IMG/VR virus record: IMGVR_UViG_3300048573_000244
Coordinates: 1-39,568 of that record
From: a virus
Length of the DNA: 39,568 nucleotides
Direction: 5' to 3' (one strand)
In this document: positions 5,323 to 39,568 of the stretch, piece after piece
Layout: each line of letters opens with the position of its first letter
Numbering within the stretch: position 1 is the first letter of the stretch
Translations under genes and position numbers: made by a program
The notes under the pieces: generated by a model
What the model was told of the DNA's origin: nothing
Databases searched by the model: none
The model's input: only the letters and a program-made list of their open reading frames with translations

Positions 5323-6339
5323 ATGGCAACAATCGTCACCCGTGCCGGTAAGGGCAGCGAACTAACACATGCCGAAGTTGACGCGAATTTCACGAACCTG
5401 AATACCGACAAGGTTGAGGCGGCAAGTCTGGCGGCGGTAGCGATTAGTGGCGCATATGCCGATTTAACGGGCATCCCGGCATCATTCACACCATCGGCCC
5501 ACGTTCACACCATTGCCAACGTCACCGGCCTGCAAACGGCGCTGGACGGGAAACAGGCGGCGGGTAGTTATGCGGCGGCAGTCCACGGGCATGTGATTGC
5601 CGATGTTACAGGATTGCAGACTGCGCTAGATGGCAAACAGGCGGCGGGGTCATATCAACCCCTCGCGGCGGTCCTGACGGCGACTACGGCCAGCTTCACC
5701 ACGGCGCAAGAGAGCAAGCTTGCCGGGATCGCGGCGGGTGCGACGGTCAACGCGGCTGACGCGGCTTTGCGGGACCGGTCAACGCATACGGGGACGCAGG
5801 CGGCGGGAACTATTACAGGGTTGGCAGCGATTGCGACAACGGGCAACGCGGCTGATCTGGACCCGCTATTTGCGAGTACTGTGCTGGGCAACCCGGACGG
5901 CATTTCGGGGCCGGTGCAAGAAATCGGGTTTGGCGACTTTGGCAACCTGATCCCCGTTTTTAGCGATTTCGATAACGGCACCGTGCCTGCATCCGGCGGC
6001 GGCGGGACAAAGTTTCTTCGCGATGATGCGGTTTGGGTAGTTCCGGGTGGTGGGGGCGGTGCAACATACGGCACGGCAACAATCGACTTCGGCGCGTTTC
6101 CCGGATCGAATGAAGCATTGGTTACGTTTGCCGATACGGGCGTGGGCGCGGGGTCAAAGGTGCAAGCGTGGATTATGGCCGACGGTGTGACCATCGATCA
6201 TGACGCGGCGGACCATCGCTACGCGCCTATCCTTTTCTCACTGTCGGCATTGCCTACGGCGGGGGTTGGCGGCACGATCTACGCGCGCTCATTTTATGAA
6301 ATGCAGGGGACGTTTGCTGTCCGTTGGTCTTGGGCTTAA
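5323..6339 (+). CDS. Fibre-like virion protein with repeats
   Basis: The protein has 338 residues. The N-terminus (GSELTHAEVDANFTNLNTD) is the start typical of many phage fibre proteins. It is followed by two copies of VTGLQTALDGKQAAGSY at about 66-110, a repeat common in trimeric fibres and head fibres. The middle is Ala/Gly-rich and the C-terminal 100 residues look beta-rich. GGGGGG just before the ATG serves as ribosome site. Its position right after coat could mean a head fibre or decoration protein; a tail-attached fibre is the alternative. Confidence 0.75.
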   Translation: MATIVTRAGKGSELTHAEVDANFTNLNTDKVEAASLAAVAISGAYADLTGIPASFTPSAHVHTIANVTGLQTALDGKQAAGSYAAAVHGHVIADVTGLQTALDGKQAAGSYQPLAAVLTATTASFTTAQESKLAGIAAGATVNAADAALRDRSTHTGTQAAGTITGLAAIATTGNAADLDPLFASTVLGNPDGISGPVQEIGFGDFGNLIPVFSDFDNGTVPASGGGGTKFLRDDAVWVVPGGGGGATYGTATIDFGAFPGSNEALVTFADTGVGAGSKVQAWIMADGVTIDHDAADHRYAPILFSLSALPTAGVGGTIYARSFYEMQGTFAVRWSWA

Positions 6340-8024: not shown

Positions 8025-8648
8025 GTGGCACTGACATTGACTGCAAAGCCCTCTGGCGCTGATTATACCTACACCTATACCGTGCCGGTTGCGGAAGGTG
8101 ACAGCCTTGCATCCTACACACTGGTAGCAACGGATTGCGTAATCCTAGCGGATGAATCCAGCGGCAATGACATTATTTTTATGGTGTCCGGCGGGGTCGA
8201 TGGCACGTCCGGGGTGATTGAACTAGAGGCGCTGACTGGTAACAGTGAAGTGCTGCCCGAAACGCTCTATATCCCGATCACCGCAACGCAGGCAGGCCCG
8301 ACCAAAGCTAGCGGCGTAATCGAATTTGCGCTGCGTAAAGTGTTTGGTAACGGGGCATCAATTGACGCAGCGGCGGGGGCTGACGCACTTGAGCGCCTAA
8401 ACGATATGGTTGCGTTCTTTGAAGTGTCCGGGGCTTCCGTTGGTTGCCCTATGCCGCTTGAGGAAGGCACTGATTTACTCATTCCAAGCTGGAAGCTTCA
8501 GGCGCTCAAATACGGGCTGACCGTGCGCTGTGCTGAGCATTACGGACGCGAATTGACAGGTGATGTGCTGTTGAACGCACGCACCGGGTTGCAGCAGTTG
8601 AAGCACTCCAACCTGCCTGCTGACCGGGTTGGCACGGAATACTATTGA
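8025..8648 (+). CDS. Head-tail connector, P22 gp4-like
   Basis: In P22, gp4 attaches to the portal after packaging and stabilises packaged DNA. The C-terminal two thirds of this 207-residue protein resemble gp4 (helical segment EFALRKVFGNGASIDAA, then LERLNDMVAFFEVSG, LIPSWKLQALKYGLTVRCAEHYG). Residues 1-90 form an extra beta-rich domain (TLTAKPSGADYTYTYTVPV) that I do not recall in P22 gp4. The GTG start at 8025 follows GGGAGG (8013-8018). The gene order gp4 then gp10 matches P22. Confidence 0.75.
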   Translation: MALTLTAKPSGADYTYTYTVPVAEGDSLASYTLVATDCVILADESSGNDIIFMVSGGVDGTSGVIELEALTGNSEVLPETLYIPITATQAGPTKASGVIEFALRKVFGNGASIDAAAGADALERLNDMVAFFEVSGASVGCPMPLEEGTDLLIPSWKLQALKYGLTVRCAEHYGRELTGDVLLNARTGLQQLKHSNLPADRVGTEYY

Positions 8649-9994
8649 TGAAAGTCCCGTTCGCCACAACCGCCTTCAATCGCGACCGGGCGGCAAGCCC
8701 CGATCTGCAAGTCGTCAATATGCTGGCAGAGCCTTCGCAGACCGAGGAGCGCGGGGTTATCCTGCTCTCGCGTCCGGGGCTAGATGAACTGGAATCGCTG
8801 GGGACAGGCCCGGTCAAGGCATTGTTCAAGGCTGACGGGGTGCTAGGCGGTAAGCGCTTCGCGGTATCGGGCAACAGTCTCTACCGCGATAGTACATTAC
8901 TGGGCGCTGTTAGCTTCACTGGCCCGATCAGCATGGCGGGATATAGCGACAATCTGCTGATTGCAGGCGGGGCTTCGCTGTACGGCTATGACGGAACGAC
9001 CTTGGCGGCTATCGCGTTCCCTGACGGGGCCGATGTGACTAAGGTTGTGGTCGGCGCAGCGCGGGCCTTGTGCATTCGGGAAGGCACGGGAGACTTCTAC
9101 TGGTCCGATGTGCTTTCAACCACGATTGACGGGCTTTCATTTGCCAATGCGGAAAGCAAGTCCGACAATCTGCTAGATATTCTGTTCATTGACGACATGG
9201 CGGTTCTGTTTGGCTCTGAAACCGTTGAGTTTTGGCCGAATACGAACGATGCTGATTTACCGTTTCAGCCGCTGGAAGGCCGGGTGTTTGAACGCGGGGT
9301 ACGGGCAACGGGTTGTGCTACGGCGTTCGGGCCGTCATTTGCTTGGGTGACTGATCTCAACCAGATTTGCTTTGCCGATCAGGATAACGTGATTTCGTTC
9401 CCCGGCTTGGAAGAGCGGATAATCAAAAGCGTGGATTGCAGTCTCTGGACCTTCACCGTTGAAGGCATGGAGATACTGGCTCTGACCTTGGATAATGAAA
9501 CCTGGGGGTACAATCGTCGTACCGGGTTTTGGACCGAATTGCGCTCGGTTGGCTATTCCAACTGGTTGCCGGTGTGTTTCGCAGGCGGGGTTTTTGGCAG
9601 CGGGATTGATGGCCGGTTGCTGGGCTTTGGCGACACATACACCGATCTAGGCGGAGATCTGGAACGTATCTTTACTGCCGGACAGCCGCTTAACTCGCTC
9701 GGCCCGTTCATTAACAATGTGGTGCTGCGATGCCAGACCGGCCAAACGCCTTACCTGTCGGGGGACTATGCTAATCCGGTCATCGAAATGCGGCTTTCGC
9801 GCGATGGTGGCAGGACTTGGGGCGGACACCGGCAAACCACGTTGGGAACGCAGGGCGACTACCGGCATTTGGTGCAATGGGTCGGTTGCGGACAGGCGGC
9901 GCGAGTTGGCTTTTTTGCGCAGTTCCGGGTGACTGATCCAGTTGGCTTCAGGGTTTCTGAGGTGCTGGTTAACGAACCGTTCGGGGGTCTGTGA
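8648..9994 (+). CDS. Packaged-DNA stabilisation protein, P22 gp10-like
   Basis: P22 gp10 plugs the portal below gp4 and supports the needle and tailspikes. This 448-residue protein has the family's character: an N-terminal segment (PFATTAFNRDRAASPDLQVV) followed by propeller-like beta repeats, with several Gly-Asp turns and FWPNTNDADLPFQPLEGRVF near the middle. The ATG at 8648 overlaps the gp4-like stop (TGATG). Its length is close to P22 gp10 (about 470). Confidence 0.82.
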   Translation: MKVPFATTAFNRDRAASPDLQVVNMLAEPSQTEERGVILLSRPGLDELESLGTGPVKALFKADGVLGGKRFAVSGNSLYRDSTLLGAVSFTGPISMAGYSDNLLIAGGASLYGYDGTTLAAIAFPDGADVTKVVVGAARALCIREGTGDFYWSDVLSTTIDGLSFANAESKSDNLLDILFIDDMAVLFGSETVEFWPNTNDADLPFQPLEGRVFERGVRATGCATAFGPSFAWVTDLNQICFADQDNVISFPGLEERIIKSVDCSLWTFTVEGMEILALTLDNETWGYNRRTGFWTELRSVGYSNWLPVCFAGGVFGSGIDGRLLGFGDTYTDLGGDLERIFTAGQPLNSLGPFINNVVLRCQTGQTPYLSGDYANPVIEMRLSRDGGRTWGGHRQTTLGTQGDYRHLVQWVGCGQAARVGFFAQFRVTDPVGFRVSEVLVNEPFGGL

Positions 9995-36002: not shown

Positions 36003-36076
36003 TTCCCCGTCGTCTAACGGTAAGACGCGGCGCTTTGAACGCTGAAATCGTGGTTCGATACCATGCGGGGGAACCA
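36003..36076 (+). tRNA. tRNA-Gln (anticodon UUG)
   Basis: Acceptor TTCCCCG pairs with CGGGGGA (one wobble). The D arm is GTCT/AGAC. The anticodon stem CGGCG/CGCTG holds CTTTGAA, anticodon TTG. The T arm is CGTGG/CCATG around TTCGATA. CCA is encoded at 36074-36076. It decodes CAA. Confidence 0.92.
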
Positions 36077-36078
36077 TC

Positions 36079-36098
36079 ATATAAAGATTTCTTTATAT
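36079..36098 (+). other. AT-rich hairpin after the tRNA block
   Basis: ATATAAAG and CTTTATAT form a perfect 8-bp stem with the loop ATTT, two bases after the CCA of tRNA-Gln. It may be a processing signal for the tRNA precursor. It lacks the GC stem and T run of a terminator. Confidence 0.5.
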
Positions 36099-36109
36099 CC
36101 GAATTTGGG

Positions 36110-36618
36110 GGCTTGCGCTCATTGCGAGTGCGGCGCATAAAGTTTGGGCCGCAACGATGGATAAGATCGCGCGGCCCGACTTGTTTTGCAGAGCCTCTTT
36201 AAGCTCCACAGTCGGCCATTGCAAGCGCGAATTGACTTGGCCGCGCACTTATCCTGAAAATCAAGCCTAGCCGTGCAGAGAGGGGATTGCGTCCCCTGCG
36301 GGTCCGACGCCGCGCATAGTGAACTGGTTAGCGTTGGGATTTGGCCAAAGCCAAGGGTTGAGCGAAAGCGGGAAGCCCGGCCAAGCGGATTGCAGTTGAT
36401 CCGACAAGTAACCCGCAACCCTTGGTGCCTGCATCATCCAAGGGGTCGGTATGCGGCGGACTGGCTCCGAGTAGCATATTTCGACTGGCTCCGCCCCTTG
36501 GCTCTTTGGGTGCAACACGCACTCAAAACCGGGGGGATAGGAGAGCTATGTCGAAATAACAACGAACTTCACCAAGTAGCATAAGGGTTAGGTTATTAGT
36601 TGACTATCCCTTAGGTGA
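36110..36618 (+). ncRNA. Candidate large structured non-coding RNA
   Basis: No convincing gene lies between 36077 and 36633, yet the stretch is packed with exact complementary arms. GGGCCGC 36146 pairs with GCGGCCC 36171; AGGGGA 36281 with TCCCCT 36292; CCAAGGGTTG 36351 with CAACCCTTGG 36416, which encloses CGGG/CCCG (36369/36412) and CGGAT/ATCCG (36386/36399); CCAAGGGG 36438 with CCCCTTGG 36494; TATTTCGAC 36477 with GTCGAAATA 36550; GGGTGC 36508 with GCACTC 36519; and TAAGGG 36582 with CCCTTA 36608. Three stems contain G-U pairs only in the + transcript, which favours that strand. The RNA is probably co-transcribed with the tRNAs. It is not a tmRNA, RNase P RNA or known intron as far as I can tell. 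Confidence 0.45.
36140..36187 (+). terminator. Strong hairpin with T-rich tail, possible terminator
   Basis: AAGT and GGGCCGC (36140-36152) pair with GCGGCCC and ACTT (36171-36182), with a further inner CGAT/ATCG stem. TTGTTTT follows at 36181. This could end the tRNA transcript, or it could be the first domain of the structured RNA. The T run overlaps the lower stem and is interrupted, so termination may be partial. Confidence 0.45.
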
Positions 36619-36633
36619 CATTATGGTTGAGGA

Positions 36634-37065
36634 ATGAAAAAATGCACAAAATGTCAAAGCGAACTTCCGCTAGAAAGCTTTCATAGCAACAGTGCTGCAC
36701 GGAAAACTCTCCGAGCTATTTGCGGACCATGTGAGATTGCAAAGCGCAAGGAATATCGTCAGCGTCGGAAATTAGACCCAGAATTTTCAGATAAAAGTCT
36801 GTATCATAGACAGCGCAAAATCTTAGATGATGCGAAGTCTGTACCATGTATGGATTGCGGAATTTTACATTCGCCGTATATTATGGACTTTGACCATAGG
36901 GACGGCGCAGAAAAGTTGTTCAACGTTTCTTCTGGATTCAAGCGAGCAAAGCACATTGTGCTGGCGGAAATAGCCAAATGTGACATAGTTTGCTCAAACT
37001 GCCATAGATACCGGACATATGAACGGCGTGGCGCAAAGCGAGGGGTTGTTAATGCAGCGCAATGA
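36634..37065 (+). CDS. HNH homing-type endonuclease
   Basis: The 143-residue protein has an N-terminal zinc finger (CTKCQSELPLESFHSN and CGPC) and an HNH core: CMDCGILHSPYIMDFDHRDG, then KCDIVCSNCHRYRTYERRG. DFDH provides the catalytic His, and the CxxC pairs bind zinc. The gene is visibly AT-richer than its neighbours and is the only one in this arm so, which suggests recent arrival. GAGGA touches the ATG without normal spacing. Free-standing HNH nucleases spread by cutting related phages at their own insertion site. Confidence 0.85.
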   Translation: MKKCTKCQSELPLESFHSNSAARKTLRAICGPCEIAKRKEYRQRRKLDPEFSDKSLYHRQRKILDDAKSVPCMDCGILHSPYIMDFDHRDGAEKLFNVSSGFKRAKHIVLAEIAKCDIVCSNCHRYRTYERRGAKRGVVNAAQ

Positions 37066-39201: not shown

Positions 39202-39568
39202 ATGACTGACAAGCCCGAAAATACGGCTCCAGTTCGGGCCGACGTTCTTACTCGTTTCCAGCCTGGCAATCCCGGCAAGCCGAGGGGCGTTCGGCACAAG
39301 CTGCAAGAGGATTTTCTAAAGGACGTTCAGGCTGCATGGGAAGCTAGCGGCCCGCAAGCCATCATTGACATGATCGCCGACAAGCCCGGTGACTTCGTAA
39401 AGATGGTGGCAAGCTTGATGCCGAAGGAAGCCACGCTTAACATTCACGATCACAGCGAGATGACGGATGCAGAACTTGCAGAGCGCGTCCGCAGCCTTGC
39501 CACGACACTTGCTCCTTTCCTCGTTGATGGAGCTGGAAACGCTGACGCAGGCAATGAAGGCGCGGGCG
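39202..39568 (+). CDS. terS: Terminase small subunit, 5' part
   Basis: The gene begins at ATG 39202 (MTDKPENTAPVRADVLTRFQ) and continues past the right end into 1-156. The N-terminal part has PGNPGKPRGVRHKLQEDFLK, the start of many small terminase and DUF5681 proteins, where a helix-turn-helix recognises the packaging site. The middle (ASLMPKEATLNIHDHSEMTD) is the linker that precedes the oligomerisation domain. It lies right before terL, as expected. GGGG six bases upstream is a modest ribosome site. Confidence 0.82.
   Translation, partial: MTDKPENTAPVRADVLTRFQPGNPGKPRGVRHKLQEDFLKDVQAAWEASGPQAIIDMIADKPGDFVKMVASLMPKEATLNIHDHSEMTDAELAERVRSLATTLAPFLVDGAGNADAGNEGAG
39442..39568. repeat. Terminal direct repeat, right copy
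   Basis: This is the exact second copy of bases 1-127. It lies inside terS and continues in the same frame at base 128. Only one copy exists in the circular genome. Confidence 0.9.

Follow-up and report, generated by a model that had tools for sequence, protein, structure and literature searches.

A compact RNA beside phage tRNA genes appears to belong to a new family of structured noncoding RNAs in Sphingomonadales phages and integrated elements

Between a cluster of tRNA genes and an HNH nuclease gene in a phage genome lie 557 bases in which a sequence-only reading had recognized no convincing gene and had proposed a single large structured RNA. Does this stretch specify an RNA, how far does that RNA extend, and what might it do? 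The DNA analyzed, referred to here as the window, comprises all 39,568 nucleotides of IMG/VR record IMGVR_UViG_3300048573_000244. It encodes a terminase, a portal, and a major head protein, and an exact 127-bp direct terminal repeat (1–127 and 39442–39568) makes it probable that the record covers the whole genome. Four tRNA genes on the + strand (Pro TGG, Leu TAG, His GTG, and Gln TTG), of which the last ends at 36076, follow a gene for a primosomal/replication-initiation protein (phrog_3992), and the HNH gene occupies 36634–37065 (143 aa; phrog_2255, E 1.4e-29), which bears out the placement described for 36077–36633. Directly 3′ of the last tRNA gene, the + strand carries an A+T-rich hairpin with an 8-bp stem at 36079–36098 (perfect arms 36079–36086/36091–36098), which may mark the 3′ limit of the transcript carrying the tRNAs.

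The + transcript of the 557 bases has a fold energy well below that of shuffled sequences (z −4.06), and the − strand a less extreme one (z −2.80), compared with a mean z of −0.22 (sd 1.05) in 98 samples of 400 nt taken elsewhere in the genome on both strands. Because single 400-nt pieces of this genome reach values as low as −3.9, fold energy is insufficient proof on its own. The excess of exact complementary arms that had drawn attention to the locus is genuine: when arm pairs at most 200 nt apart were counted, 37 perfect arms of at least 6 bp were present (17.9 expected), together with 15 of at least 7 bp (4.5 expected), 7 of at least 8 bp (1.1 expected), and 3 of at least 9 bp (0.3 expected), and none of 200 shuffles matched these counts in the four size classes. 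Open reading frames inside 36077–36633 have neither a PHROG nor a Pfam match, and homologous stretches are interrupted by indels of lengths other than multiples of three that separate conserved blocks. Relatives L075 and L131, for example, are 82% identical over 495 bases with 1–3-base indels throughout, and L076 and L077 are 76% identical over 341 bases with single-base indels separating invariant blocks. A protein-coding interpretation, considered because short frames seem conserved between L075 and L077, was ruled out by in-frame stops, absent starts, and the single-base indels. These comparisons show the family element to be an RNA that codes for no protein, in agreement with the original impression that the stretch lacks a gene.

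Homologues were encountered along several routes. In L075, L076, and L077, a noncoding stretch of ∼550 bases lies immediately 3′ of the primosomal gene, with neither tRNAs nor an HNH gene there; window positions 36133–36241 are 75% identical to L075 and L077. By blastn, the 5′ part of the window's RNA matches L160, L164, and L165 (72% over 140 nt, E 1e-14). Degenerate patterns placed on conserved stretches retrieved L131, L156, L158, L160, L161, L162, L164, L165, L166, L167, and L195, the last from Sphingorhabdus sp. 109, and L210, L211, and L220 came to light in Sphingomonadales genomes. In total, there are ∼15 distinct relatives in phages and Sphingomonadales genomes, with noncoding RNAs of ∼400–550 nt. 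Other searches returned nothing further: four members had no blastn match among 50,697 phage records, the RNA was detected by blastn at none of 73 loci found with the HNH gene as a guide, and an alignment of the primosomal protein yielded no relatives in genome contigs. L106, which matched an 18-base exact pattern once, was discarded as a coincidence inside a protein gene, and L212 and L213 matched weakly and were left out. A covariance model of one domain (R1, described below) matched only its starting genome among 385 genomes sampled from the whole class. Weak matches to a second model (R2) among 398 genomes of the order, with a best E of 2.7e-5, were treated as G+C-rich hairpins and excluded. 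As far as sampled, the family appears confined to sphingomonad elements, and this distribution suggests that the window's phage infects a sphingomonad.

All structural evidence is comparative, and the most extensive comes from R1, a 188-position domain aligned by sequence only across 11 members. Its 35 proposed pairs are formed in 88.6% of cells, compared with 40–48% when the partner is slid, and the covariation score is 0.459 as opposed to 0.08–0.13. Double changes occur at 23 of the 35 pairs, although such counts represent non-independent events, as some of the ∼15 members are close kin. None of 500 shuffles attained the real value on any measure, and when every possible pair of columns was ranked without supervision, the R1 helix pairs came out on top. 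Column pairs 9–248 and 14–42 each use AU, UA, GC, and CG. Among non-Watson–Crick cells, 18 are G-U and 6 A-C, an excess which suggests that the RNA is read from the same strand as the neighboring genes; comparative analysis shows the window's RNA to be encoded on the + strand, as the tRNAs are, and covariation in homologues supports the structured + strand RNA originally proposed. Checks suggested along with that proposal gave a consistent picture, in that base changes in homologues compensate, shuffled sequences fold less stably, and no coding frame is conserved.

The family layout consists of a 5′ domain and a core with helix P1 upstream of R1, and a three-helix pseudoknot downstream. The sequence core, R3, reads GGUUAUGCGAAUURGCGC...AAAAGCUGCYUUGG. 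R1 is present in subtypes A and B only and was undetected in subtype C (L076, L077, and L167), so that by this comparison the middle of the RNA is exchangeable. Exchange also appears to involve halves of the molecule: the L077 RNA (5641–6260) resembles L075 in its 5′ half (86%) and L076 in its 3′ half (77%), so that on sequence comparison it is a recombinant and RNA halves are exchanged between phages.

Within the window, we read the RNA as a compact member of ∼365 nt at 36107–36470, on the + strand. Its 5′ domain (36111–36226) is predicted to form a three-way junction of P0, stem 1, and stem 2. R2, a model of this domain built from five relatives with the window excluded, matches 36123–36225 with 64.9 bits (E 5.3e-17, a rough value, as for all three of our home-made covariance models, R1–R3), and the second-best place in the 39.6 kb scores 9.3 bits. 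The closing helix P0, read by hand, pairs GCUUGC (36111–36116) with GCAAGC (36221–36226). Stem 1 (36146–36177) pairs GGGCCGC with GCGGCCC (36146–36152/36171–36177), followed by an inner stem, CGAU/AUCG, and a 7-nt loop, GGAUAAG, at 36159–36165. This stem is kept in six sequences, with L160 swapping C-G for G-C. Stem 2 (36178–36214) joins GAC(U) at 36178–36181 to (A)GUC at 36211–36214, according to pair counts on alignment A9, and has a C-G pair in the window where the other sequences have U-A.

The loop of stem 1 appears to engage in a kissing interaction. In all six sequences compared, which represent five loop sequences (GGAUAAG in the window, GGGUGA in L075 and L131, AGGUGA in L077, GGUGGA in L160, and GCACCA in L166), it is fully complementary to a site at the matching place in the P1 loop; in the window this partner is CUUAUCC at 36248–36254. 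The decisive test is the presence of the complement at a fixed position, for which the chance expectation is 0.2–2% per sequence and ∼1e-8 for four independent variants together, by our own multiplication and assuming independence. Because both partners lie in loops, the contact could form within one molecule or between two.

Downstream of this contact, the window departs from most relatives. Its P1 is weak (about 36232–36239/36261–36265), and between P1 and the pseudoknot a variable middle region of ∼130 nt (36271–36400) replaces ∼310 nt, including the R1 domain, of most relatives. The R1 model has no match in the window, and R3 has none at the expected place, although the kissing partner in P1 is still kept. 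On its own, the middle region folds no more stably than shuffled sequence (z 0.09). The structured architecture resumes with a 3′ pseudoknot at 36401–36456, formed by the helices CCGAC/GUCGG (36401–36405/36445–36449), CCGCA/UGCGG (36413–36417/36452–36456), and CCCUUGG/CCAAGGG (36419–36425/36438–36444). Its arm order, a-b-c-c′-a′-b′, recurs in ten relatives from three subtypes with differing sequences, as read by hand. With arms of 5 bp, the layout arose in none of 400 shuffles; the window's arms measure 5, 5, and 7 bp, and the weight lies with these longer arms alone, as 4-bp arms gave the layout in half of the shuffles. On a plain MAFFT alignment, 75.9% of the pseudoknot cells pair, compared with 34–56% when slid, a moderate covariation signal because MAFFT misaligns subtypes A and B there. 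A small hairpin, GGA-CUGGC-UCC (36458–36468), read from the sequence, resembles the tails of relatives and is the probable 3′ end of the RNA. Taken together, the comparisons show that three elements, namely the three-way junction of the 5′ domain, the kissing-loop contact, and the 3′ pseudoknot, are common to the relatives and maintained by compensating changes.

This boundary revises the extent of the RNA. The + strand of the stretch is structured as had been proposed, yet it appears to hold not one RNA of ∼550 bases but the family RNA plus a separate, very stable imperfect hairpin before the HNH gene (36475–36560, + strand, z −7.6), for which no counterpart was seen among the relatives. Two exact arm pairs that had been singled out as competing, 36438–36445/36494–36501 (8 bp) and 36477–36485/36550–36558 (9 bp), do exist and do cross, and had been taken as a possible switch. 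Two neighboring elements explain them better: the arm at 36438 has an alternative partner, 36419–36425, that fits the family pseudoknot, and the 9-bp pair is the outer arm of the separate hairpin, which also accounts for a large share of the folding stability in the second half of the stretch. The HNH gene looks like a recent arrival: its GC3 is 0.39, against values near 0.6 for most long ORFs of the phage, and its protein has no relative in nine related phage records, L075, L076, and L077 included. In the same area, two short sequences, GACTGGCTCCG (11 nt) and AGTAGCATA (9 nt), are each present in two copies within 36459–36583, and these repeats could mark an insertion.

How does this RNA relate to known classes? 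At gathering scores, 4227 Rfam models recovered only the tRNAs of the window and nothing in the relatives, and lax thresholds gave only chance-level matches in both. The GOLLD and ROOL models matched neither the window nor the relatives, and the HEARO and group I and group II intron models had no match in the window. The absence of an assignable class noted at the outset is thus upheld, and the suggested kinship with GOLLD, ROOL, HEARO, or group I introns finds no support in these models. No publication on such a family was found in the open-licence literature, and by these comparisons the sphingomonad phage RNA family is new and absent from Rfam 15. A distant, unrecognized form of a catalogued RNA, ribozyme, or intron would be very improbable given the match results; no host gene was seen to be interrupted by it, and a conserved protein partner is absent. 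What speaks for such a form is a general likeness to GOLLD and ROOL in size, pseudoknots, phage location, and the window's tRNAs (PMC12286853). ROOL, a large RNA with several pseudoknots that occurs in phages and prophages and is reported to lie often near tRNA islands, shares with the present family a knotted architecture, carriage by phages, and kissing loops (PMC12286853). The solved ROOL, however, measures 659 nt, as opposed to ∼370–550 nt here, with no sequence or model match, and the tRNA-island location holds for the window and for none of the 15 related loci. GOLLD, likewise a phage/prophage RNA reported to lie often near tRNAs, combines one conserved and one variable part, as does this family (PMC12286853). 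It often exceeds 800 nt and conserves its 3′ region, whereas the sphingomonad RNA keeps a 5′ domain and a 3′ pseudoknot and varies in the middle. A homo-oligomeric RNA cage is among the traits by which GOLLD is recognized. Like HEARO, the window's structured RNA precedes an HNH gene, but the resemblance does not extend to a constant HNH association, as the 143-aa protein is missing from the nine related records. The tRNA setting had been taken as suggestive; with no tRNA gene at any of the 15 related loci, the tRNAs beside the window's RNA appear incidental.

The gene neighborhoods bear on function. The RNA lies beside the primosomal gene in the window, L075, L076, L077, L112, and L131, beside an endolysin gene in L156 and L166, beside an Rz-like spanin gene in L211, and behind an integrase gene in L195, L210, and L220. 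In these last three, which may be integrated elements of a kind distinct from ordinary phages, the integrase gene and one ORF of 233–290 aa, without a convincing family match, precede the RNA. The distribution shows, as judged from these records, that the RNA family moves as a unit between neighborhoods, and the varying neighbors argue against control of one particular gene, as a cis element would be expected to retain its target. We favor, with a probability of about 0.6, the reading that the window's RNA is a compact representative of a new noncoding RNA family of Sphingomonadales phages and integrated elements, free-standing and acting in trans. It would exist as a stable RNA of its own or be cut from the tRNA-containing transcript, and would work in trans as a folded body, whose copies might be joined through kissing loops and which might bind a partner from the host or the phage in the course of infection. 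A further step, to an independent class of large phage RNAs in which exact loop–loop complementarity links separate copies into an assembly made of RNA only and different from those of GOLLD and ROOL, with an infection role recurring among sphingomonad phages and integrated elements, is less likely.

Against the favored reading, R1 and R3 are undetected in the window, whose middle might not be part of the same RNA, and the distinct members number only ∼15. In addition, most members are embedded in operons and, like the window's, have no evident promoter or terminator for themselves, an arrangement compatible with a cis-acting element as well. HK022 put RNA, which has adjacent hairpins in a phage transcript, must be transcribed through to act and acts in cis. 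An antitermination signal of this kind, or a leader of the next operon, would be in keeping with the shared strand, the frequent position at operon junctions, the two adjacent hairpins in the 5′ domain that recall put RNA, and the lack of a terminator-like site found within the window's RNA. We nevertheless regard it as unlikely: the downstream gene varies (HNH, small ORFs, endolysin, integrase-adjacent genes), put RNA is far smaller, and known antitermination RNAs need less size and fewer tertiary contacts than the at least two present here. Alternatively, the window's RNA could be a decaying remnant that kept the ancestral 5′ domain and pseudoknot, lost its middle, and had the HNH gene and hairpin inserted nearby. 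The missing R1 and R3, the unremarkable fold of the middle, and the low GC3 of the HNH gene and its absence from nine related records would fit. Decay, however, would break pairs, and the window's own changes are compensated (GGAUAAG/CUUAUCC and the C-G pair of stem 2), its pseudoknot is private in sequence yet perfect, and relatives of subtype C also do without R1, all of which makes a remnant quite improbable.

To the few large pseudoknotted phage RNAs these results add one more family with a covariation-supported structure and a kissing loop, along with a naturally compact form that is of use for structural studies. Members in sphingomonad genomes may be inducible, which would open expression, assembly, and fitness to direct testing. 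Elsewhere in the window, positions 8801–9200 also show a strong + strand fold energy (z −3.9, 20 shuffles), inside a predicted ORF at 8645–9994.
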